Origin: Teichococcus aestuarii
GTDB lineage: Bacteria; Pseudomonadota; Alphaproteobacteria; Acetobacterales; Acetobacteraceae
Length of the DNA stretch: 64,000 nt
Direction: 5' to 3'
NCBI RefSeq assembly: GCF_003116135.1
Contig: NZ_PDOA01000008.1
Location: 62,001 to 126,000 of the forward strand
Part shown: one piece after another, positions 1 to 53,510 of the stretch
Numbering within the stretch: position 1 is the stretch's first letter
Layout of the letters: the number at the start of each line of letters is the position of its first letter
Made by a program: the position numbers and the translations under genes
The notes under the pieces: generated by a model
The model's input: only the letters and a program-made list of their open reading frames with translations
What the model was told of the DNA's origin: nothing
Database searches by the model: none

Positions 1-1021
1 AGGGGCGGATCAGCGCCTCGTAATGCGCCGCCGGCCGGCCCTCGCGGCCGAGTGCGACGATGGGCTGGTAGGCCAGGGAGAAGCGGCGGCCGGCGACGGC
101 GCGGCCGAGCGCCGCGCTGCGCCGGCCGGCGGCGGCGACGAAGCCGTGCAGCCCCTCCTCGAACCCCGCTCTTGCCAGGGCCGCGGCCCCCCCCTGCGCG
201 AAGGTGCCGAGCGCCAGACGCAGCGCGCGCACCGCCTGCGGCCCGCTCAGCCCGGCCGACTCGGGGTCCGCCAGCGGCAGGGTCTGGGCCGAGACGGCCG
301 CCCCCGACAGACCGGCGGCGCCGAGGATGGCCTGCAGCCGCTCCACCACCGCGCCGAGGCTGGCATCGCCGGCGGGGCCGAGCACGCCGAAGCGCCCCGG
401 CGCCAGCTGCGCCGCCACGCCATCCGGGCCGGCATGGTCGGCCAGGGCGGCGGCCACGTCGCGCGCCAGGGCGGGGCGGGGGGAGATCCGCCCGTCGGCG
501 CCGGAGAGTTCCATCAGCGACAGCACGGTGCCGGCCTCGCCCTCCCGCAATGTCGCCTCGGCGCGGCGGGCCAGCAGGCCGGGCTCGCCAGGGGCGGGAG
601 AAGGCGCCGGCGCAGGGCAGGGCTCCGCCGCCTGCGGCATGGCCATCGGCTCGGGCAGGGCGGTGAAGCACAGCGCCAGCCGCGCCCCGGGCAGGCGCAG
701 CCCGTTGAGCAGCTGGGGCGGATGTCCGGGGCAGGCCAGCCGCAGCACCAGCGGCGGCAGCCGGCCCTCGGCGGCCAGCCGCGCCAGGGCACCCTCCAGC
801 CCCGGGCGGTCTTCCGGCGCCACCAGGGCGCGCAGCGGCCCGCCCAGCGCCGCCGTGCCCAGCCGCGGCAGCAGCGTGCCCGCCAGGAAGGCGATCTGGC
901 CGCCGGGGTCGGTCTCCACCATCAGCCCGACGGCGGCGAAGGCGAAGGCGGCGAGGCGGTCGGGGCCGGCCTCGTCCGTGGCGGCGGAAGGCGGCGGCCG
1001 CAGCGCCGTCTCAGCCACCAC
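1..1021 (-). CDS. EAL-domain cyclic-di-GMP signalling protein (partial)
   Basis: The frame is open from GTG 1019-1021 to the window edge: 340 codons, C-terminus outside. Residues 1-100 look PAS-like (GLMVETDPGGQIAFLAG). A Pro/Ala-rich linker and a degenerate GGDEF-like middle follow. From residue 314 the start of an EAL phosphodiesterase domain is visible (FSLAYQPIVALG), with the signature YEAL at 334-337, where Glu335 is the metal-ligand Glu of this family. The family hydrolyses c-di-GMP to pGpG or acts as a c-di-GMP sensor; the remaining catalytic residues lie outside the window, so activity cannot be judged. The GTG overlaps the fliP stop by 11 bp, so it is probably translated as the last gene of the fliO-fliP unit. 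This suggests local control of motility by c-di-GMP (inference). The start is uncertain because GTG 1016-1018 is also possible. Confidence 0.85.
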   Translation of the reverse strand, partial: MVAETALRPPPSAATDEAGPDRLAAFAFAAVGLMVETDPGGQIAFLAGTLLPRLGTAALGGPLRALVAPEDRPGLEGALARLAAEGRLPPLVLRLACPGHPPQLLNGLRLPGARLALCFTALPEPMAMPQAAEPCPAPAPSPAPGEPGLLARRAEATLREGEAGTVLSLMELSGADGRISPRPALARDVAAALADHAGPDGVAAQLAPGRFGVLGPAGDASLGAVVERLQAILGAAGLSGAAVSAQTLPLADPESAGLSGPQAVRALRLALGTFAQGGAAALARAGFEEGLHGFVAAAGRRSAALGRAVAGRRFSLAYQPIVALGREGRPAAHYEALIRP

Positions 1022-6712: not shown

Positions 6713-6780
6713 GGCGGCGCGGGATGCGCGTGGTCATTGGCGGCGCAGGACGCGCGTGATCATCGGCGGCGCAGGATGCG
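6713..6780. repeat. 26-bp tandem repeat at the flgF 3' end
   Basis: Three adjacent units start at 6713, 6739 and 6765, each beginning GGCGGCGC(A/G)GGA. Units 1 and 2 match over nearly all 26 bp. Unit 3 is the last codons of flgF and diverges after 16 bp. Units 1 and 2 therefore look like duplications of the flgF tail that now fill the flgF-flgG gap. Confidence 0.8.
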
Positions 6781-7500
6781 CTCGACGGCGCTCTGCACCC
6801 GCTCGCCTTCCTTCTCGGCGAACTGGGCGGCGAACTGGAACTCGCGCAGCTCGGCGGTCAGCCGCGTCAGCTCCAGCACGGGCCTGACATTGCTGCCCTC
6901 CACCGCGCCCTGCACCACGGCCGCGCGCTCCACCGGCTGCGGCGCCGCCTCGGGCGGCGCGACGTAGAGCCGGTCGCCCTCCGCCTGGAGGAGCTGCGGG
7001 TTGGCGAAGTTGACGACGCGCAGCCGCCCCACCGGCCCGGCCTCGGTGGCCAGCGTGCCGTCACCGGCGATCTCGATGCGCGCCGCGCCCTGCGGGATCA
7101 CCAGCGGCGCGCCCTCGGCATCCAGCACGGCGTGGCCGGCGGCATCCACCACGCCGCCCTCGGGCGAGAGGGCGAAGCGGCCGGCGCGGGTGTAGCGCTC
7201 GCCATCCGGCGTCTGCACGGCGAAGAAGCCTTCGCCGGTCAGCGCCAGGTCCAGCGGGTTGCCGGTCGTCTGCAGCGGCCCGGGCGAGAAGTCCCGCCAG
7301 GTGGCGCGGTCCTGCGCGAAGGCGACGGGGCGGCCGCCCAGCGCGCCGGCGCCGTCCCGCCCGGCCAGCTGGGTCGCGAACACCGTCTGGCTCGCCTTGA
7401 AGGCGGGCGTGTCGGCATTCGCCACGTTGGCGGCGAGCCCATCCGTCGCCCGCCGCTGCGCGGCGAGGCGGGAGAGGACGATGTAGCCCGGCATGTCCAT
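6760..7500 (-). CDS. flgF: Flagellar proximal rod protein FlgF
   Basis: 246 residues from ATG 7498-7500, with AGGAG 10 bp upstream. The frame runs further upstream, but this start gives the family N-terminus MDMPGYIVLSRLAAQRRATD and falls just downstream of the sigma-54 promoter. The rod/hook motif ANVANADTPAFK is at about 27-38, the middle GEGFFAVQTPDGERYTRAG is clear, and the C-terminal helix GSNVRPVLELTRLTAELREF is present. It is a proximal rod component and the first gene of the minus-strand flagellar train. Confidence 0.93.
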   Translation of the reverse strand: MDMPGYIVLSRLAAQRRATDGLAANVANADTPAFKASQTVFATQLAGRDGAGALGGRPVAFAQDRATWRDFSPGPLQTTGNPLDLALTGEGFFAVQTPDGERYTRAGRFALSPEGGVVDAAGHAVLDAEGAPLVIPQGAARIEIAGDGTLATEAGPVGRLRVVNFANPQLLQAEGDRLYVAPPEAAPQPVERAAVVQGAVEGSNVRPVLELTRLTAELREFQFAAQFAEKEGERVQSAVERILRRR

Positions 7501-7538
7501 CGTGGCGCGGCTCCTGCGGTTCGGCCGGTCCGGGCTCC

Positions 7539-7553
7539 GCAAGCGGCGTGCCA
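7539..7553 (-). promoter_or_regulatory. Sigma-54 (-24/-12) promoter for flgF
   Basis: Read on the minus strand, the element is TGGCAC-GCCGC-TTGC, an exact match to the sigma-54 consensus with GG and GC ten bases apart. The predicted start site is near 7527, about 27 bp before the flgF ATG. Sigma-54 promoters need an AAA+ enhancer-binding activator, which in alphaproteobacterial flagellar systems is typically FlbD. Confidence 0.85.
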
Positions 7554-7616
7554 GGGGCGGCATCGGCGCGGGGCGGCCTGGAAAGAGGCCTGCCGCGCCG
7601 ATGCAGAGGGCTACCG

Positions 7617-7652
7617 GGCAATTGTTGCCAGGAAGTTGAGGCAATTTTTGCC
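7617..7652. promoter_or_regulatory. Twin GGCAA-N3-TTGCC operators
   Basis: Two perfect palindromes, GGCAATTGTTGCC (7617-7629) and GGCAATTTTTGCC (7640-7652), lie 23 bp apart centre to centre, about two helical turns. They are 77-112 bp upstream of the flgF sigma-54 element and 64-99 bp upstream of the fliL ATG. From memory they resemble the ftr enhancer sites of Caulobacter FlbD. That identity is inferred. Confidence 0.75.
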
Positions 7653-7715
7653 GGGCAAGGAGCCGTTAACAGGTGCCCGCTAATCCCCGCTGCATTCCAG
7701 GATGGAGTGGGCGCC

Positions 7716-8213
7716 ATGAGTGGCGGCGCGCGGGGCGAGAAGGCCCCAAAGGAAAAGACAGGTGGCGGGCGGCGCAAGGCCGTGCTGCTGGCGGCCGCGG
7801 CGGTGCTGCTGCTGGGCGGCGGCGGCGCGGGCGCGTGGCTCGGCGGGCTGCTGCCATGGCCGGCTCCCTGGCCGGGCGCGGCCGCGCCGGCCGAGGCCAA
7901 GGCGGCGCCTCCGGTCTTCGTGGAGGTGCCGGACATCATCGCCAACCTCAACACCGCGGCACGGCGGCAGACCTTCATCAAGCTGCGCGCCAAGCTGGAG
8001 GTGGAGGGCCCCGCCCAGGCGGCGGCGCTGCAGGCCTCGATGCCGCGGCTGCTCGATATCTTCACCACCTATCTGCGCGAGACCCGGCCGGAGGAGCTGC
8101 GCGGCAGCGCCGGCACCCACCGGCTGCGCGAGGAGATGATGGCGCGCGCCAACGTCGCCGCCGCCCCCGTGCGGGTGACGGACGTGCTGTTCGTCGAACT
8201 GGTGATGCAATGA
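7716..8213 (+). CDS. fliL: Flagellar basal body-associated protein FliL
   Basis: 165 residues from ATG 7716; a GGAG lies just upstream and the in-frame extension has no family features. There is a short Lys/Arg-rich cytoplasmic tail and one transmembrane helix (about 22-44). The periplasmic domain contains VEVPDIIANLNT and the block RQTFIKLRAKLEVEG near 92-106. The C-terminus RVTDVLFVELVMQ is typical of FliL. It forms rings around the stator units and supports torque. It is the first gene of the plus-strand train, divergent from flgF, and its stop overlaps the fliM ATG. Confidence 0.93.
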   Translation: MSGGARGEKAPKEKTGGGRRKAVLLAAAAVLLLGGGGAGAWLGGLLPWPAPWPGAAAPAEAKAAPPVFVEVPDIIANLNTAARRQTFIKLRAKLEVEGPAQAAALQASMPRLLDIFTTYLRETRPEELRGSAGTHRLREEMMARANVAAAPVRVTDVLFVELVMQ

Positions 8214-9412
8214 GCGGCGCGCCGGAGCAGCCCGCCGAGGATGACTGGGCCGCCGCGCTGGCCGAGGCAGGCGGCGACGCGGCGCCGGAGCGGGGGCTGG
8301 AACGGGGGCCGGAACAGGCGCCAGAGCAGGCACCGGGCCAGGCGCCGGAGGCCGGCGATGGCTGGGGCGAGGCGCTGGCCGAGGCCGTGGCCCCCGCCAT
8401 GTCCCCGCCCGAGCCGACCCGGGTGCTGAGCCAGGCCGAGATCGACAGCCTGCTCGGCTTCGGCGACGGCGAGGAGACGGCGGAGGACACCACCTCGGGC
8501 ATCGAGAAGGTGATCGCGCGCGGGCTGGTCTCCTACGAGCGCCTGCCGATGCTGGAGATCGTCTTCGACCGGCTGGTGCGCATCATGTCCACCAGCCTGC
8601 GCAACTTCACCTCGGACAATGTCGAGGTGTCGATCGAGGGCATCAACAGCCTGCGCTTCGGCGACTACCTGAACTCCATCCCGCTGCCGGCCATGCTGGT
8701 CGTCTTCAAGGCGGAGGAGTGGGACAATTACGGCCTCGTCGTCGTCGATTCGGCGCTGATCTACTCGGTGGTGGACGTGCTGCTGGGCGGGCGGCGCGGC
8801 ACCTCGCCGATGCGCATCGAGGGCCGGCCCTACACCACCATCGAGCGCGGGCTGATCGAGCGGATGGTGGAGGTGGTGCTGCAGGACCTCTCCGAGGCCT
8901 TCGGGCCGCTCGCCGAGGTGCGCTTCCGCTTCGAGCGGCTGGAGGTGAACCCGCGCTTCGCCGCCATCAGCCGCGCCAGCAACGCCGCGGTGCTGACCCG
9001 CATGCGCGTCGACATGGAAAGCCGCGGCGGCCAGATCCAGCTGCTGATGCCCTACGCCACGCTGGAGCCGGTGCGCGAGCTGCTGCTGCAGCAGTTCATG
9101 GGCGAGAAGTTCGGCCGCGACTCGATCTGGGAGACGCACCTGGCCGAGGAGCTGCGGCAGACCGAGGTGGCGCTCGACGTGGTGCTGGACGAGCAGGCGA
9201 TGAACCTCGCCGACGTGGTCGGCCTGCGCGTGGGCGACCGGATCACCCTCGGCGTCGGCCCCGGCGCGCCGGTGCGGCTGCGCTGCGGCGACGTGCCGCT
9301 CTTCGAGGGCAAGGTGGGCGGGCACAACGGCAAGCTGGCGGTGCGCATCGCCCGCACCATCCCGCGCGGCCCGGCGGCACGCGGCGCCATGGAGGGGGAG
9401 GGAGCGCGATGA
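8210..9412 (+). CDS. fliM: Flagellar motor switch protein FliM, extended N-terminus
   Basis: 400 residues against about 330 usually. FliM builds the C ring and binds CheY-P. The EIDSLL CheY-binding motif, normally at the extreme N-terminus, is at residues 77-82 (LSQAEIDSLL, 73-82). It is preceded by a 72-residue extension with a Glu/Pro/Gln-rich repeat. The extension carries two copies of a D-x-W-x-x-A-L-A-E motif (11-19 and 50-58). The CheC-like middle domain and the C-terminal SpoA domain (VALDVVLDEQAMNLADVVGL; LFEGKVGGHNGKLAVRI) are intact. The start is fixed by the ATGA overlap with fliL. The SpoA partner FliN is not in the window. Confidence 0.95.
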   Translation: MSGAPEQPAEDDWAAALAEAGGDAAPERGLERGPEQAPEQAPGQAPEAGDGWGEALAEAVAPAMSPPEPTRVLSQAEIDSLLGFGDGEETAEDTTSGIEKVIARGLVSYERLPMLEIVFDRLVRIMSTSLRNFTSDNVEVSIEGINSLRFGDYLNSIPLPAMLVVFKAEEWDNYGLVVVDSALIYSVVDVLLGGRRGTSPMRIEGRPYTTIERGLIERMVEVVLQDLSEAFGPLAEVRFRFERLEVNPRFAAISRASNAAVLTRMRVDMESRGGQIQLLMPYATLEPVRELLLQQFMGEKFGRDSIWETHLAEELRQTEVALDVVLDEQAMNLADVVGLRVGDRITLGVGPGAPVRLRCGDVPLFEGKVGGHNGKLAVRIARTIPRGPAARGAMEGEGAR

Positions 9413-9927
9413 CGACGCTGGAATGGGTGCTGCAGGGCGCGCTGGCGCTCGGCCTGCTGGTGGCGCTGCCCGTGGCGGTGCGGCTGGAGCGCGCCCTCAC
9501 CGGGCTGCGCCGCGACCGCGAGGCGATGGCCGCCAGCATGAAGGGCTTCGCCGAGGCGACGCGCGAGGCGGAGGGCGCCACGCTGCGGCTGCGCGCCGCC
9601 GCCGACAGCGCCGGCCGCGGCATGGCGGAGCAGACCGCGAGCGCCCAGGCGCTGCGCGAGGATCTCCGCTTCCTTGTCGAGCGCGCGGAGGGGCTGGCGG
9701 ACCGGCTGGATGCCGCCATCCGCCAGGCGCGCGGCACCGCGCCGGCGGCCGCCCGCCCGGCCCCGTCCCCGGTCCCGTCGCCGGTCCGGTCCCCGGTCCT
9801 GTCCCCGGCGCACGCCATCCCGCACCCAGCGGCCCCGCCATCCCTGGCCGAGGAGGAGCCGGCCATGCCGCGCACCCGTGTGGAGCACGAGCTGTTGCAG
9901 GCCCTGATCCGGAAGCGCGTCTCGTGA
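9409..9927 (+). CDS. DUF6468-like membrane-anchored protein
   Basis: 172 residues; the ATG overlaps the fliM stop (ATGA). One N-terminal transmembrane helix (about 5-25) is followed by a coiled-coil-like region with many Ala, Arg and Glu (about 30-105), a Pro/Ser-Pro-Val repeat linker (about 113-140), and a short charged C-terminus containing RVEHELLQALIRKR. The function is unknown. From memory, proteins of this design (DUF6468) sit next to fliM in Rhodospirillales, suggesting a motor or stator accessory role. The tight coupling to fliM and to the following MotE-like gene supports that. The family assignment is tentative. Confidence 0.6.
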   Translation: MTTLEWVLQGALALGLLVALPVAVRLERALTGLRRDREAMAASMKGFAEATREAEGATLRLRAAADSAGRGMAEQTASAQALREDLRFLVERAEGLADRLDAAIRQARGTAPAAARPAPSPVPSPVRSPVLSPAHAIPHPAAPPSLAEEEPAMPRTRVEHELLQALIRKRVS

Positions 9928-11673: not shown

Positions 11674-14600
11674 ATGCCCCGGTCCGCCTCCACCCTGGCC
11701 CTGGCCCTGCTGCTCGGCGGCGGCGCGCTGCTGCCGGCGGCGCCGCCGCTGCGCGCCGCGGCCGGGCCCGGCGCCCCCGCGGTGGTTCCCCTGGCCGTGC
11801 CGGTGCGGGCCGGCGTGCATCCGGGCATGGGGCGCGTGGTGTTCGACTGGCCGGAGGCGCCCGGCTACTCGCTGGTGCAGGAAGGCGAGATGGTCGACCT
11901 GCGCTTCGGCACGGTGGTCCGCCTGGGGCTGGGCGGCGTGGTGGCGAAGCCGCCGCCGAATGTCCTGCGGGTGGAGCCGGTGCCGGGCGGGCTGCGGCTG
12001 CATCTGCGTCCCGGCGCCCGGCTGCGCCACTACCTGCTTGGCCCGCGCCTGGTGCTGGATGTGCTGGACCCGCCTGGCGCCAGCCCCACCCTGCCGCCGC
12101 GCCGCGTGGCTGAGCCCGCCCCGTCCCAGCCCGCCCCGTCCCAGCCCGCCCCGTCCCAGCCCGCCGTATCCCAGCCCGCCGCGTCCCAGCCTGCCGTGTC
12201 CCAGGCCGCTCCTTCGGCCGGGCCTGCCCGGGCTGAACCCGGTGCCGGCGCGCCTCCGGCCCTGGCCAGGCGGGAGGAGGCGGCACTGGCCGCCATTGCG
12301 GCCCTGGCCAGGCAGGCCGAAGCACCTGCCGCGCCCGCGCCGGTCCCGCACCCCGCCATGGCGGCAGGAGACGCCGCCAGCCTGCCGGCGGAGGCGCCAG
12401 GCCCGTCCGTGCCAGGCCCGTCCGCCATGCCCAGCCCATCGCCCCCGCTGGCCGCTGCTTCGGCCACGGGTGCAGCGCCAGCCATTTCCCTCGCCGCGCC
12501 GCAGCCGGTGCCGCAGCCGGCGCCCCAGGCGGAGCCGCCCCGGCCGCAGCCCGTTCCGCCGCGGCCGCTGGCGCCCGCCTCCCTGGGCGGGTCGCCCACC
12601 GCCGATGCCCTGGCCCGGGCGGCCGCTCCGCTCCCGCGCGCAGCCGCGCCGCGGCCGGCGCCCCTGGCGCTGCCCTTTCCGGCCGGCACCGCCGCCGCCG
12701 CCCTGCTGCGCGGCGATTCCCTGCTGCTCGCCTTCGACAGCCCGCAGCCGCCCGATGCCGCCACGCTGCGGCGCCTGGCCGCCGCGCTTGGCCCCGTGGA
12801 AGTGATGGAGGTGCCCGGCAGCACCGTGCTGCGCCAGCGCAAGGTGCGCCACCCCGCGCAGCTCCGTGCCACGCCGGAAGGCGGCTGGGCGCTGTGGCCC
12901 GAGGACGCCGGAGCACCCGCCGCCCCCGCCGTGCAGGCCCGGCACGAGGCGGGCCCGGCGGAGGGCCAGCCCCGCCTGCTGCTGCGCGCTGAGGGTGCCG
13001 GCCGCGTCATCGCCGTGCCCGACCCGGCCGGCGACGGCCTGCTGCTGCTGGGCCTGGTGGCCCCGCCCGGTGCCGCCCTGCACGGCGCGCAGCAGCACGC
13101 GCCGTTCGACCTGCTGCCCACCCAGGCCGGCGTGGCGCTGGCGGTGCGCTCCGACCTGGTGACGCTGCGTTCGGTCCCGGAGGGCTTTGCCGTGCCCCTG
13201 GCGCGCGGCGGTGCCCTGGCGCTGCAGCCGGCACCCGCGGGCGAGACCCTGCTGGCGCTGCCGGACGAGCCTGTTTCCGCCCTGCTGGCCCGCCGCCACG
13301 CCGCCTTCAACGCGGTGGCCGCCGCGCCCTCCCTGGCGCGCGGGCCGCTGCGCTTGGCGCTGGCCGAGTCGCTGCTGGCGCTCGGGCTGGGGGTGGAGGC
13401 GCAGGCCCTGACCACCCTCGCCGTGACCGAGGACCCCCGCCTGGCCAGCGAGCCCCGTGCCATCCTGCTGTCCGGCGCCGGCGCCCTGCTGGCCGGCCGG
13501 GCGGAGGAGGCGGCGGCCGCGCTGGAGGATGCCCGCCTGCCGGCGGCGCAACAGGATGTGCGGCTGTGGCGCGCCCTGGCCGGGCTGCGCGATGATGAGC
13601 TGGCCCCGGAATCCGAGGCGGCGCTGCGGGAGGTGGAGGCCACGGCCCCGCTGCTGCGCGCCTGGCCGGAGGCCCTGCGCCGCCGCCTTCTGCCGCTGGC
13701 GGCGCGCAGCCTGGCCGGGCAGGGCCGGGCCGATACGGCCGCGGCGCTGCTGAGGGACCTGCCGGACGGCGAGGCCGCCACGCCCGGCATCGCCTATGCC
13801 CGCGCCCGCATCGCCGAGGCGCAGGGCGACCATACGGCCGCGCTGGCCGCCTATGGCTCCCTGGCCGAGGGGCGGGACCGCGACCTGCGCGCCCGGGCCA
13901 TCGGCCGCATGGCGGAGCTGCGCCTCGCCGCCGGCGAGACCGATCCGGCCGGGGCGGCCGCCGCGCTGGCCGCCGGCATCGCCGCCTGGCGCGGCGATGA
14001 GCGGGAGCTGTCGCGCCGCCTGCGCGCCGCCGCCCTGTACCGCGAGGCGGGGCAGGCCGAGGCGGCGCTGGAGCTGCTGGAGGAGACCCTCGCCCTGTTC
14101 CCCGACGCCGCGCCGCAGATCGCCGCGCTGCGCGACGCGGCGGCGATGCAGCGCCTCGTCCAGCCCGGCCTGCCGGCGCTGGAGGCGGCACAGCGGCTGG
14201 AGGCGGAGATGCAGACCCTGCCCGCAGGCCCCGCCCTGGACGCGGCGGCGCTGCGCGTGGCCGACGGCCTCGCGGGGCTGGACCTGCATGCCCAGGGCGC
14301 CGCGCTGCTGCGCCAGGCCGCGCTGCGCAGCGCGCAGCCGGCGCCGCTGCGGCTGCGCGAGGCCGAGCTGCTGGTGAGCGCGGGGGAGGGTGCCGGCGCC
14401 CTGGCCGCGCTGCGCGCCGCCCCGGGGGAGGAGGAGGAGGACGATGTCCGCAGGGAGATGACGGAGGCGCGTGCCCTGGCCCTGTCCGGCGATGCCGCGG
14501 GCGCCGAGGCCGCGCTACGCGGGCTGGGCGCGGCCGGCGCCGCGCGCCTGGCCACCCTGCTGGCCGAGCGGAAGGACTGGACGGGCGCCGCCGCGGCGCT

Positions 14601-14889
14601 GGCGCGGCATGCCGCCGCCAGCCTGCCGGCCGCGCCCGCGCCGCTCGACGAGGCGCAGCGGCGCCTGCTGCTGCGCCTGGCCGCCTACCAGGCCCTGGCG
14701 GGCGACGAGGCGGGCCTCGCCGCCCTGCGCGCCAGCTACGGGCCGCGCCTGGCCGGCGGGCCGCTGGCCGAGGCCTTCTCGGCCCTCGCCGCCGAGGCGC
14801 CGCGCCCGGGCCTGCCCGATCTCGACCGGCTCCGCCGCGAGGTGGCGATGGGGCAGGCGCTCTCCGAGCAGCTGCGCAGCCTGCGCTGA
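11674..14889 (+). CDS. Large exported AMIN-like/helical-repeat protein, unknown
   Basis: 1071 residues, not recognised as a named family. A signal peptide is visible (1-29). Residues 45-130 form a beta-rich AMIN-like domain (RVVFDWPEAPGYSLVQEGE; LLGPRLVLDVLDPP). Residues 148-330 are a Pro/Ala/Ser-rich linker containing six PxxSQ repeats. A second beta-rich segment (about 335-420) follows. From about 540 to the end the protein is Ala/Leu/Glu-rich tandem helices, like degenerate tetratricopeptide repeats. AMIN-like domains bind envelope components in other proteins, so a periplasmic scaffold around the motor is plausible (inference). It lies 14 bp after cheZ and 70 bp before flgB, inside the flagellar train. 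It has few Cys and no catalytic motif. Confidence 0.8.
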   Translation: MPRSASTLALALLLGGGALLPAAPPLRAAAGPGAPAVVPLAVPVRAGVHPGMGRVVFDWPEAPGYSLVQEGEMVDLRFGTVVRLGLGGVVAKPPPNVLRVEPVPGGLRLHLRPGARLRHYLLGPRLVLDVLDPPGASPTLPPRRVAEPAPSQPAPSQPAPSQPAVSQPAASQPAVSQAAPSAGPARAEPGAGAPPALARREEAALAAIAALARQAEAPAAPAPVPHPAMAAGDAASLPAEAPGPSVPGPSAMPSPSPPLAAASATGAAPAISLAAPQPVPQPAPQAEPPRPQPVPPRPLAPASLGGSPTADALARAAAPLPRAAAPRPAPLALPFPAGTAAAALLRGDSLLLAFDSPQPPDAATLRRLAAALGPVEVMEVPGSTVLRQRKVRHPAQLRATPEGGWALWPEDAGAPAAPAVQARHEAGPAEGQPRLLLRAEGAGRVIAVPDPAGDGLLLLGLVAPPGAALHGAQQHAPFDLLPTQAGVALAVRSDLVTLRSVPEGFAVPLARGGALALQPAPAGETLLALPDEPVSALLARRHAAFNAVAAAPSLARGPLRLALAESLLALGLGVEAQALTTLAVTEDPRLASEPRAILLSGAGALLAGRAEEAAAALEDARLPAAQQDVRLWRALAGLRDDELAPESEAALREVEATAPLLRAWPEALRRRLLPLAARSLAGQGRADTAAALLRDLPDGEAATPGIAYARARIAEAQGDHTAALAAYGSLAEGRDRDLRARAIGRMAELRLAAGETDPAGAAAALAAGIAAWRGDERELSRRLRAAALYREAGQAEAALELLEETLALFPDAAPQIAALRDAAAMQRLVQPGLPALEAAQRLEAEMQTLPAGPALDAAALRVADGLAGLDLHAQGAALLRQAALRSAQPAPLRLREAELLVSAGEGAGALAALRAAPGEEEEDDVRREMTEARALALSGDAAGAEAALRGLGAAGAARLATLLAERKDWTGAAAALARHAAASLPAAPAPLDEAQRRLLLRLAAYQALAGDEAGLAALRASYGPRLAGGPLAEAFSALAAEAPRPGLPDLDRLRREVAMGQALSEQLRSLR
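12115..12204 (+). repeat. Six 15-bp tandem repeats inside the AMIN-like gene
   Basis: Units of CCCGCCCCGTCCCAG-type sequence encode Pro-Ala-(Pro/Val/Ala)-Ser-Gln. The first three copies are identical and the later ones differ at one or two bases. Being in multiples of 3, copy-number change by slippage would keep the frame and alter linker length. Confidence 0.9.
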
Positions 14890-50874: not shown

Positions 50875-53510
50875 CCCCCTACCGCACCCTCCACGCGGGC
50901 GGCCGCGACCACGCCATCATCGACCTGCCGGCCATCGTCGGCGAGGACCGGCTGTGCGCTCTCCCCTTCAGCCTGCGCGTGCTGCTGGAGAACCTGCTGC
51001 GCCACCAGGACGGCGACACCGTCACCGAGGCCGAGATCGGCGCCGTGCTGGCCGCCGCCGGGGGCGAGGCCCGCCCGGCCGACATCGCCTTCCGCCCCGC
51101 CCGGGTGCTGATGCAGGACTTCACCGGCATCCCCGGCCTCGTCGACCTCGCCGCGCTGCGCGATGCCTTCGCCGCGCGCGGCGGGGATCCGCGGCAGGTG
51201 AACCCCGGCATCCCCGTCGACCTGATCGTCGACCACTCGCTGATCGTCGACCATGCCGGCGCGCCGGATGCCATGGCGCGCAACGTCGCCAACGAGTATC
51301 GCCGCAACGCCGAGCGCTACGCCTTCCTGCGCTGGGCGCAGGGCGCCTTCGGGAATCTGCGCGTGGCGCCGCCGGGCGGCGGCATCCTGCACCAGGTGAA
51401 CCTGGAGCACCTCGCCCGCGTGGTCTGGACGCGGGAGGAGGGCGGCCGCAGCCTGGCCTACCCCGACACGCTGGTGGGCACGGACAGCCACACCACCATG
51501 GTCAACGCCCTCGGCGTGCTGGGCTGGGGGGTGGGCGGCATCGAGGCGGAGGCGGCGATGCTCGGCCAGCCCCTGGTGTTCCGCCTGCCGGAGGTGGTGG
51601 GGGTGCGGCTCACCGGGCGGCTGCCCGCTGGCACCACGGCCACCGACCTGGTGCTGGCGCTGACCCAGCGGCTGCGGGCGGTCGGCGTGGTGGAGAAGTT
51701 CGTCGAGTTCACCGGCCCGGCGCTGGATGGCGCGCTCACCCTGGCCGACCGCGCGACGCTGGCCAACATGGCGCCCGAATACGGCTCCACCTGCGGCTTC
51801 TTCCCCGTGGACCGGGTGACGCTGGACTACCTCGCCGCCACGGGGCGGGATGCGGCGCAGCTCGATCTGGTGGAGGCCTGCTGCAAGGCCCAGGGCCTGT
51901 GGCGTGAGCCGGGCGCGCCGGAGCCGCGCTTCGCCACGCTGGTGGAGTTCGACCTCGGCACGGTGGAGCCCTGCGCCGCCGGCCCGCGCCGGCCGCAGGA
52001 CCGCGTGGCGCTGCCCGCCCTCCCCGCCAGCCTGACCGATTTCTCGGGGCGCGCGGCGGCGCATGGCTGGGAGGATGGCTTCGGCGATGGCGCGGTGGTG
52101 CTGGCCGCCATCACCTCCTGCACCAACACCTCCAACCCGGCGCTGATGGTGGGCGCCGGGCTGCTGGCCCGCAACGCCGTGGCGCGCGGCCTGACGGTGC
52201 CCGCCTGGGTGAAGACCTCGCTCACCCCCGGCTCCCGCGTGGTGGCGCGCTACCTGGAGAGCAGCGGGCTGCAACAGGATCTCGACGCGCTGGGCTTCCA
52301 CCTCACCGGCTTCGGCTGCGGCAGTTGCGGCGGCAATTCCGGCGCGCTGGCGGAGGAGGTGGCGGCACGCATTCGCGAGAAGGAGCTGGTGGCCTGCGCC
52401 GTGCTCTCCGGCAACCGCAACTTCGAGGGTCGCATCCACCCGCAGGCGCGGGCGGGCTACCTGATGTCGCCGCCGCTGGTGGTGGCCTATGCCCTGGCCG
52501 GCCGGGTGACGCTGGACCTGACCGCGGAGCCGCTGGGCCATGACCGGGAGGGCCGCCCCGTCATGCTGCGCGAGCTGTGGCCGGAGGCGGCGGAGATCGA
52601 GGCCGTGCTGCGCGGCGCCGTCTCGCCGGCGACCTACCGCGCCGAATACGCCAGCCTCTTCGCCGCCGATGCCGAATGGCGCGCCCTGCCCGTGGCCGGC
52701 GAGACGCGCTTCGCCTGGGCGCCCGGCAGCACCTATATCCGCCGCCCGCCCTACTTCGACGGGCTGCCCGCCGCCGAGGCCGCGCCGCAACTCTCCGGCG
52801 CCCGCCCGCTGCTGATCCTGGGCGACGGCATCACCACCGACCACATCTCGCCGGTCAGCGCCATCCCGGCCAGCTCTCCGGCGGGCGGCTTCCTGGCGGC
52901 GCATCAGGTGCCGCCGGGCGAGTTCAACGCCTATGGCGCGCGGCGCGCCAACCACGAGGTGATGATGCGCGGCGCCTTCGCCAACATCCGCATCCGCAAC
53001 GAGATGCTGCCCGGCCAGGAGGGCGGCCTGACCCGCCACGCGCCGAGCGGCACGGTGATGAGCGTCTATGACGCCGCGCTGCGCTACCGTGAGGAGGGCG
53101 TGCCGCTGGTGGTGGTGGCGGGGCGCGACTACGGCGCCGGCTCCTCGCGCGACTGGGCGGCGAAGGGGCCGGCGCTGCTCGGCGTGCGCGCCGTCATCGC
53201 CGAGAGCTTCGAGCGCATCCACCGCTCCAACCTCGTCAGCATGGGCATCCTGCCGCTGGAATTCACCGGCGGCGCCACGCGGCACAGCCTGGGGCTGGAC
53301 GGCACGGAACGCTTCGGCATCGAGGCGCTGGACGAGCAGGCGCAGCCCGGCGCCCTGTTGCGCGCCACGCTGCACCGGGCCGACGGACAGACGGAAATCC
53401 TGCCGCTGCGCTGCCGGCTGGACAGCGCCTATGACCGCCGCGTCTGGCGGGCGGGCGGCATATTGCCCTTCATGCTGCGGGCCCTGGTGGCGCGGGGGGT
53501 GGCGGCGTGA
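50871..53510 (+). CDS. Aconitate hydratase (AcnA/AcnD type)
   Basis: 879 residues from ATG 50871. [4Fe-4S] enzyme; cluster Cys are in AITSCTNTSNPA and FGCGSCGGNSG. N-terminal LPFSLRVLLENLLRHQDG and DLIVDHSLIVD, TLVGTDSHTTMVNALGVLGW, and the swivel-domain AGRDYGAGSSRDWAAKG with GDGITTDHISP are canonical. Sequence looks AcnA-like, but the overlapping prpF downstream suggests an AcnD-like role on 2-methylcitrate or on aconitate-type tricarboxylates. prpB and prpC are absent from the window. Confidence 0.94.
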   Translation: MTPYRTLHAGGRDHAIIDLPAIVGEDRLCALPFSLRVLLENLLRHQDGDTVTEAEIGAVLAAAGGEARPADIAFRPARVLMQDFTGIPGLVDLAALRDAFAARGGDPRQVNPGIPVDLIVDHSLIVDHAGAPDAMARNVANEYRRNAERYAFLRWAQGAFGNLRVAPPGGGILHQVNLEHLARVVWTREEGGRSLAYPDTLVGTDSHTTMVNALGVLGWGVGGIEAEAAMLGQPLVFRLPEVVGVRLTGRLPAGTTATDLVLALTQRLRAVGVVEKFVEFTGPALDGALTLADRATLANMAPEYGSTCGFFPVDRVTLDYLAATGRDAAQLDLVEACCKAQGLWREPGAPEPRFATLVEFDLGTVEPCAAGPRRPQDRVALPALPASLTDFSGRAAAHGWEDGFGDGAVVLAAITSCTNTSNPALMVGAGLLARNAVARGLTVPAWVKTSLTPGSRVVARYLESSGLQQDLDALGFHLTGFGCGSCGGNSGALAEEVAARIREKELVACAVLSGNRNFEGRIHPQARAGYLMSPPLVVAYALAGRVTLDLTAEPLGHDREGRPVMLRELWPEAAEIEAVLRGAVSPATYRAEYASLFAADAEWRALPVAGETRFAWAPGSTYIRRPPYFDGLPAAEAAPQLSGARPLLILGDGITTDHISPVSAIPASSPAGGFLAAHQVPPGEFNAYGARRANHEVMMRGAFANIRIRNEMLPGQEGGLTRHAPSGTVMSVYDAALRYREEGVPLVVVAGRDYGAGSSRDWAAKGPALLGVRAVIAESFERIHRSNLVSMGILPLEFTGGATRHSLGLDGTERFGIEALDEQAQPGALLRATLHRADGQTEILPLRCRLDSAYDRRVWRAGGILPFMLRALVARGVAA

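Follow-up and report, generated by a model that had tools for sequence, protein, structure and literature searches.

The gap between the divergent flgF and fliL genes of Teichococcus aestuarii, a probable FlbD docking site conserved among the Alphaproteobacteria

Our analysis of the DNA between the divergent flagellar genes flgF and fliL indicates that this gap is probably a class-conserved docking site through which one regulator turns on later-stage flagellar genes. Judged from sequence, an FlbD/sigma-54 promoter is the most fitting interpretation of the flgF side, and the best reading of the fliL side is that fliL is driven from a CtrA-type box, not by sigma-54. Together they would make the gap a two-stage flagellar switch, with CtrA and fliL first and FlbD, sigma-54 and flgF second, a model to which we assign a probability of about 0.82. 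The window analysed is a stretch of 64,000 nucleotides (C96:62001-126000) of a 5.2-Mb genome in 106 contigs, whose closest named relatives by FlgF are Roseomonas-type Acetobacteraceae.

Signals in the flgF/fliL gap

The signals of the gap and the flanking gene trains, with their positions in the window, are as follows:

6760..7500, minus strand: flgF (Pfam), heading the rod/ring train flgF, flgG-like, flgA, flgH, flgI, flgJ-like and flgN-like
7539..7553, minus strand: sigma-54 -24/-12 element TGGCACGCCGCTTGC, an exact TGGCAC-N5-TTGC core (0 mismatches) that faces flgF
7617..7629, centre 7623: FlbD-type palindrome 1, GGCAATTGTTGCC, exact GGCAA-N3-TTGCC, PWM 17.1, a conserved motif
7640..7652, centre 7646: FlbD-type palindrome 2, GGCAATTTTTGCC, exact GGCAA-N3-TTGCC, PWM 21.0
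7657..7669, plus strand: CtrA-type box of fliL, AA-N7-TTAA (GCAAG-N6-TTAAC, 7655-7670), motif conserved and CtrA gene present
7681..7686, plus strand: possible fliL -10 region TAATCC, placed by the box-to-start spacing of Rhodobacter sphaeroides, with a start predicted at about 7693-7694
7716..8213, plus strand: fliL (Pfam FliL, E 1.2e-17), heading a train that continues with fliM, a CheZ-like gene, flgB-like, fliE and fliR

The first-pass annotation of this DNA had described an exact TGGCAC-N5-TTGC element facing flgF and two exact GGCAA-N3-TTGCC palindromes 23 bp apart. All three are present, the former with GG at -24 and GC at -12, and the flgF transcription start predicted near 7527 follows when the C of GC is placed at -12. 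This element is the only sigma-54 core with zero or one mismatch in the gap. The flgF start at 7563 chosen by the gene caller is overruled by homologues, many of which align from residue 1 and set it at 7500 (minus strand); intergenic gaps from flgF through to the flgN-like gene are at most 82 bp. The centres of palindromes 1 and 2 lie 71 and 94 bp, respectively, from the GG of -24, and the pair occupies positions 77-112 bp from the -12 GC (about 90-125 bp from the predicted flgF start) and 64-99 bp before the fliL ATG at 7716. The CtrA-type box begins, at its AA, 4 bp past the end of palindrome 2, whose centre is 20 bp from TTAA. In their letters the palindromes may resemble the FlbD ftr elements of Caulobacter, as the first-pass annotation suggested. 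A scan of 7400-7800 found no consensus sigma-70 promoter or terminator; the possible fliL -10 region was placed from the CtrA box-to-start distance of 23-24 nt given for R. sphaeroides in the accessible part of one report (PMC6180460).

The first-pass annotation had noticed no sigma-54 element on the fliL side, and this holds across genomes: in the 78 non-redundant divergent loci described below, exact cores toward fliL number 0/78 and one-mismatch cores 1/78. The absence of exact cores and the scan of the gap rule out a sigma-54 promoter toward fliL. AA-N7-TTAA, on the other hand, is present upstream of fliL in 86 of 116 regions, against a shuffle mean of 2.2 and at most 17 for other spacers of 0-13, as well as in 49 of 88 class-wide regions, and it occurs three times (7657-7669 included) in 100 kb of its own contig, both strands counted. 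Two CtrA half-sites at fixed spacing thus precede fliL, their fit to the canonical box being partial because the left half is often CAAG, not TTAA. A CtrA gene is present (NF045991, 369.4 bits, cut-off 350). An OmpR-type regulator whose DNA-binding domain is CtrA-like, and whose receiver domain matches only weakly, is encoded beside motB within the flagellar cluster, about 5 kb to the left of the window (C96:56311-57003, minus strand; L024:10314-11003), and it is a possible second early-class regulator.

Several other genes lie in or beside these trains. Within the fliL train a DUF6468 protein (PF20072) is encoded right after fliM (window 9409-9927, plus strand), and an ORF of 1071 residues (11674-14889, plus strand) has no Pfam match at E 0.001. 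An EAL-domain gene of the cyclic-di-GMP type occupies window positions 1-1021 (minus strand) and extends to the left; its start overlaps the end of fliP.

Conservation of the palindrome and distribution of FlbD

The whole genome contains three exact palindromes, two of them in the flgF/fliL gap. With one mismatch allowed there are 115, compared with 56 for a reversed-pattern control, and two in the window, which is not above shuffles (mean 2.46); sigma-54 cores with at most one mismatch number six across the window (shuffle mean 5.12). The unusual feature is the combination, in one gap, of two exact palindromes at a spacing of 23 bp with an exact sigma-54 core, and the doubt left by window-only counts is removed because the palindrome is conserved across loci (below). 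Exact sigma-54 cores number ten genome-wide; two of them, both in the flagellar cluster, have a palindrome (PWM at least 10) no more than 500 bp away, and the other eight have none in that range. A PWM scan of 100 kb gave nine matches of at least 10, compared with two in the reversed sequence; the flagellar cluster (39 kb) holds seven of the nine. The space that separates a leftward gene from a flgE-like gene contains another palindrome pair, with centres at 52954 and 52975. Two sigma-54 elements, each with one mismatch, flank this pair: the rightward element is 71 and 50 bp from the respective centres, and the leftward one 62 and 83 bp. All four distances are near the comb described in the next section. 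This inverted-repeat site is therefore found near flagellar sigma-54 promoters and is enriched at them, and the earlier expectation of palindrome enrichment near flagellar genes is borne out by the clustering in this genome and by conservation across loci. A further strong palindrome, at C96:58133 (L024:12133) in a lytic transglycosylase-like gene, follows the exact sigma-54 core at C96:57836 at a distance of 296 bp and looks like a putative downstream enhancer.

Of 130 flgF loci collected, 90 have a divergent FliL match and 40 do not; a k-mer similarity filter reduced these to 78 and 34, respectively (L028 and L076, both with palindromes, had no FliL match and were counted as non-divergent). 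Within 320 bp upstream of flgF, a palindrome with at most one mismatch is present in 49 of the 78 divergent loci (mean 2.1 and maximum 6 in 40 shuffles) and one with at most two in 77 of them (mean 19.5, maximum 26). The parallel figures for non-divergent loci are 3 of 34 (mean 0.6, maximum 3) and 12 of 34 (mean 5.4, maximum 13). When all 4-mer inverted dyads with spacers of 0-12 were ranked without a template, GGCA-N5-TGCC came first with 67 of 78 loci, the best dyad in ten shuffled sets reaching 14-19. The controls were flgF genes of another type from the same genus and those of Acetobacter; the six Acetobacter loci all lack both the palindrome and a divergent FliL match. Among held-out family genomes a palindrome of PWM at least 10 is present in 33 of 40 loci and absent at that level from seven, of which L156, L162, L163, L166 and L194 have none above 5; FlbD is present in the genomes of these five, four of which hold a second FlgF-like match. 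Class-wide, 62 of 88 loci have a palindrome of PWM at least 12. In Devosia and its kin (L115, L118, L124-L128 and L133) two palindromes are just 14 bp apart, and their distances to the CtrA-type box, 33 and 47 bp, do not vary.

The exact sigma-54 core toward flgF is found in 48 of the 78 divergent loci and a core with at most one mismatch in 63, and the class-wide count for the latter is 72 of 88. The best candidate has two mismatches in eight further loci of the 78 and three in seven (L057, L075, L087, L092, L100, L136 and L139). Of the Roseomonas-type loci in this last group, L087 has a palindrome of PWM 10.5 (43 bp from TTAA), L092 one of 10.7 (42 bp) and L075 one of 11.4 (105 bp), and L100 has none above PWM 5. 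Two near-duplicates had been removed from the set, L095, with a one-mismatch palindrome, and L097, with none at up to two mismatches. All six of L075, L087, L092, L095, L097 and L100 keep GTTAACAG or ATTAACAG. These exceptions could reflect a leftover role at fliL, or plain decay. Falsiroseomonas selenitidurans has two flgF/fliL loci, L102 with an exact sigma-54 element and L092 without one.

Some 23 kb from the gap, its flagellar cluster encodes a homologue of FlbD (C96:45643-47043). NF050807 is its top family (E 7.6e-190, residues 2-458), and it has GAFTGA and a Fis-type HTH (HTH_8); we consider it the FlbD orthologue, though its 631.6 bits are under the curated cut-off of 750 for this Caulobacter-type model. 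The genome has one rpoN match (PF04552, E 2.7e-67) and seven sigma-54 activator domains with E <1e-44, including that of FlbD, which alone is on the flagellar contig. Among 17 genomes of the genus, its own included, FlbD is present in five of the six with a window-type flgF and in none of the 11 others (Fisher p about 0.001); the sixth, G002, is a 500-contig draft with a palindrome locus and no FlbD match. Of the 29 family genomes that supplied L046-L074, 27 likewise have FlbD, and the two without it are 77% and 84% complete. Speaking against the association, FlbD is also present in family genomes G028, G084, G089 and G113, where no flgF match was found. The first-pass proposal that sigma-54 and an enhancer-binding protein act on the flgF side is well supported: element and palindrome are co-conserved, both genes are present, and FlbD tracks the locus type within the genus. 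In Caulobacter, FliX is the partner of FlbD and forms no part of the DNA site; a search of this genome for FliX (PF10768) gave no match, with a positive Caulobacter control, though a diverged FliX may have been missed. The loci L031-L045, from genomes of the same genus, have another flgF (about 35-40% identity by tblastn) with no divergent FliL match. Genomes that carry solely this flgF have no FlbD match, and it probably marks a second type of flagellar system.

Spacing between the palindrome and the two promoters

Distances were measured from the palindrome centre, located by PWM, to the GG of -24. The PWM was trained on set A (63 of the 78 divergent loci) and then applied to set B (29 of 40 later-fetched family genomes, the duplicates L168 and L190 having been removed beforehand) and set C (44 of 88 class loci). 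Inclusion depended on a sigma-54 element with at most one mismatch, a PWM score of at least 10 (A), 10 (B) or 12 (C) and a distance range; at a PWM of at least 10 set C has n=48. The 88 class loci are 28 of the 29 beside the window's own (one was too short) and 60 more, mostly the best-scoring of further matches, with some from families already sampled passed over; 25 of 28 checked loci are divergent from fliL.

The distances are spaced like a comb with teeth about 10.5-11 bp apart (29, 49, 61, 71, 83, 95...), and in 140 loci they fall into groups at 28-29, 48-53, 59-64, 69-75, 79-87, 93-98, 102-109 and 113-118 bp. In set A (n=63) the best period in the range 6-20 bp is 10.55, with R 0.62. The held-out sets give R 0.55 at 10.5 (best 11.55, R 0.67) for B (n=29) and R 0.44 at 10.5 (best 11.4, R 0.62) for C (n=44), where 0 of 5000 jittered sets reach the R at 10.5; the best period thus varies by set (10.55, 11.55 and 11.4). 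With distinct distances only, A and B together give R 0.37 (p 0.0075 at 10.5, p 0.02 for the best of 8-14). The jitter null ignores kinship; set A is covered by a pair test on its FlgF tree (at most two mismatches, 71 loci, changes of at least 4 bp only), in which the sigma-54 distance shifts by near-whole turns in 19 path-disjoint pairs (mean cosine 0.60, p 5e-5). As controls, the distances from the flgF ATG to the sigma-54 element and to the palindrome are unphased (p 0.11 and 0.70), and a PWM-free definition of the palindrome yields the same comb (n=85, 0/1000). Outside the palindromes, half-site-like k-mers retain some phasing (best R 0.30 for GGCA, 0.35 for TGCC and 0.25 for CCGG) and GCGC and GGCG have none (R 0.14 and 0.13); we read the residue as degenerate second sites, and it stands as a caveat to the comb. 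In 13 loci the palindrome is 28-29 bp from GG, about 54 bp from the predicted start. The shortest workable site-to-start distance for NtrC at glnA is 70 bp, as quoted in the accessible part of a review (PMC7408454). Short distance and helical quantisation together imply that FlbD would have to occupy a fixed DNA face relative to the sigma-54 holoenzyme, and FlbD probably acts on flgF from one face.

The second arm, from palindrome to CtrA-type box, is also phased, so the expectation of an unphased fliL arm, which would have counted against dual control, was dropped. Distances to TTAA are mostly 20-24, 32-35, 40-47, 52-57, 62-68 and 72-77 bp, with strays at 29, 49, 59, 60 and 81-108. The pooled arm (n=122) has R 0.47 at 10.45, compared with 0.60 for the pooled sigma-54 arm, and in 19 path-disjoint pairs its mean cosine is 0.41 (p 0.006), weaker and less even than the sigma-54 arm. 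Its best period is 10.3 in set A, 15.5 in B (n=14, p 0.31) and 12.1 in C (p 0.008), and with distinct distances only it is weak (R 0.30, n=35). The total gap has a pooled R of 0.21 at 10.9 bp, which matches the product of the arm values and is what independent locking of each arm predicts; in set A it is 0.39, above the arm product of 0.30. Were the fliL arm a by-product, R would be 0.07-0.15 pooled (about 0.12 at 10.9 bp) and 0.19-0.27 in set A, against 0.38-0.40 and 0.46-0.55 observed; for the small set B the ranges are 0.28-0.31 expected and 0.34-0.47 observed. These values suggest that FlbD may act at both promoters.

A two-stage model, its alternatives and known systems

The model builds on the observed elements, their conservation, the co-occurrence of FlbD and the phasing. 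Counting against it are the sub-threshold score of the FlbD homologue, the lack of a FliX match, the loci with poor sigma-54 candidates, the FlbD-bearing genomes with no palindrome or no flgF match, the missing FlbD match in G002, the shifting best periods and residual k-mer phasing, the uneven fliL arm, and the 13 loci whose palindrome is nearer to the start than the limit given for NtrC. CtrA (or the CtrA-like regulator of the cluster) would bind 7657-7669 first, as the conservation of the box suggests, and sigma-70 polymerase would then transcribe fliL-fliM and the genes behind. In the second stage FlbD dimers would occupy the two palindromes side by side, separated by about two turns of the helix, and the AAA+ ring of FlbD would assemble and remodel a sigma-54 polymerase waiting at 7539-7553, so that the distal rod and L/P ring genes would be switched on from about 7527. 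The palindrome tends to keep a face toward the CtrA box too, and fliL expression may accordingly be influenced by FlbD as well. The first-pass annotation had suggested that the same sites activate one side and repress or differently control the other; control of fliL gains indirect support from the helical phasing to the CtrA box, and no result here shows repression. A more ambitious version, which we think rather unlikely, has a single FlbD assembly as a two-faced, rotationally fixed operator that touches both machines, closing the early operon and opening the late one, the site having slid by whole helical turns across the Alphaproteobacteria with both faces kept.

The strongest competitor, which we rate at somewhat short of even odds, is that the palindromes serve flgF alone, fliL being unaffected by FlbD and the phasing to its box arising secondarily, from shared descent and from gaps that lengthen in whole turns. 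The tighter sigma-54 arm (pooled R 0.60 against 0.47) fits this, as do the lack of significance of the fliL arm in set B, the spread of its best period over 10.3-15.5 and the palindrome-to-box distances of 20-105 bp, which make occlusion impossible at most loci. Against it, the observed R exceeds the by-product expectation in the pooled loci and in set A (set B does not decide), the pair test on the fliL arm gives p=0.006, and L087 and L092 keep palindromes of PWM >10 without a good sigma-54 element (L100 has none above 5). That FlbD instead represses fliL here by blocking CtrA, as with fliF in Caulobacter, seems doubtful. In its favour are the 4 bp between palindrome 2 and the AA of the box, the 20-bp spacing that recurs in L026, L027 and L030, and the repression of early genes, e.g. 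fliF, by Caulobacter FlbD (PMC3930126, in the part accessible). The abutment would suit fliL repression in this genus, but this is a guess, and such adjacency is not general: the primary palindrome is at least 33 bp from TTAA in 74 of the 84 loci measured.

Two further alternatives dispense with FlbD or with function. An enhancer-binding protein other than FlbD might use the palindromes, the genome having seven activator domains to choose from; we consider this very improbable, as FlbD alone of the seven is on the flagellar contig, co-occurs with the locus type in the genus and is missing in the family genomes behind L046-L074 only from the two incomplete ones. Chance palindromes in a GC-rich gap would accord with a one-mismatch count in the window equal to that of shuffles, but class-wide conservation and the dyad ranking (67/78, shuffled best 19) contradict such an origin, and we reject it with near certainty. 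The two-stage switch thus remains our preferred reading.

To our knowledge, FlbD control has been studied mainly in Caulobacter. The present result suggests that a divergent FlbD/CtrA module exists across the class and follows a geometry that can be read from the sequence. Its natural comb of 28-118 bp offers a testable rule for the proximity and the helical face allowed to an AAA+ activator, and it opens to test, at a single site, the long-standing problem of a protein that activates one flagellar class and restrains another. Some positions in the comb are nearer than the 70-bp limit given for NtrC at glnA (PMC7408454, accessible part). What is already known is the FlbD-type sigma-54 enhancer as a kind, and the helical tolerance of a sigma-54 enhancer in Vibrio qrr. 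A literature search that covered few subscription papers, and so does not prove absence, found no account of such helical tolerance for FlbD and no class-wide FlbD/CtrA module phased to promoters of two sigma classes.

The fla2 genes of R. sphaeroides are alike in having divergent flagellar promoters with CtrA boxes (fliL2/fliF2 and flgB2/fliI2), and differ in that the accessible part of the report mentions no sigma-54 element or FlbD site there (PMC6180460). In Caulobacter crescentus, as far as the available portion of PMC3930126 goes, early flagellar genes need CtrA, and FlbD acts through ftr sites as the activator of middle genes and is also a repressor of early genes, fliF among them; downstream ftr sites are reported for the divergent flaN/flbG (Mullin and Newton 1993, from the title in PMC3096577). 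The Caulobacter FlbD-ftr systems (flaN/flbG, fliF ftr4), so far as these partial sources describe them, share with the present gap an FlbD-family activator and a sigma-54 promoter for middle or late genes, and they have sites that serve divergent units and one protein that both activates and represses. The gap described here differs in that the opposite unit has a CtrA-type fliL promoter, the sites are upstream within about 30-120 bp, and FliX was not found. By the partly accessible review on NtrC, one two-site NtrC system depends on the face of the helix and glnALG does not (PMC7408454). A parallel to the helical-turn quantisation is that of the natural LuxO/sigma-54 enhancers of Vibrio qrr, which tolerate indels of 10-11 bp (61 qrr genes tested; PMC4740811, accessible part); these are treated there as single enhancer-promoter loops, whereas here one site stands between promoters of two sigma classes.
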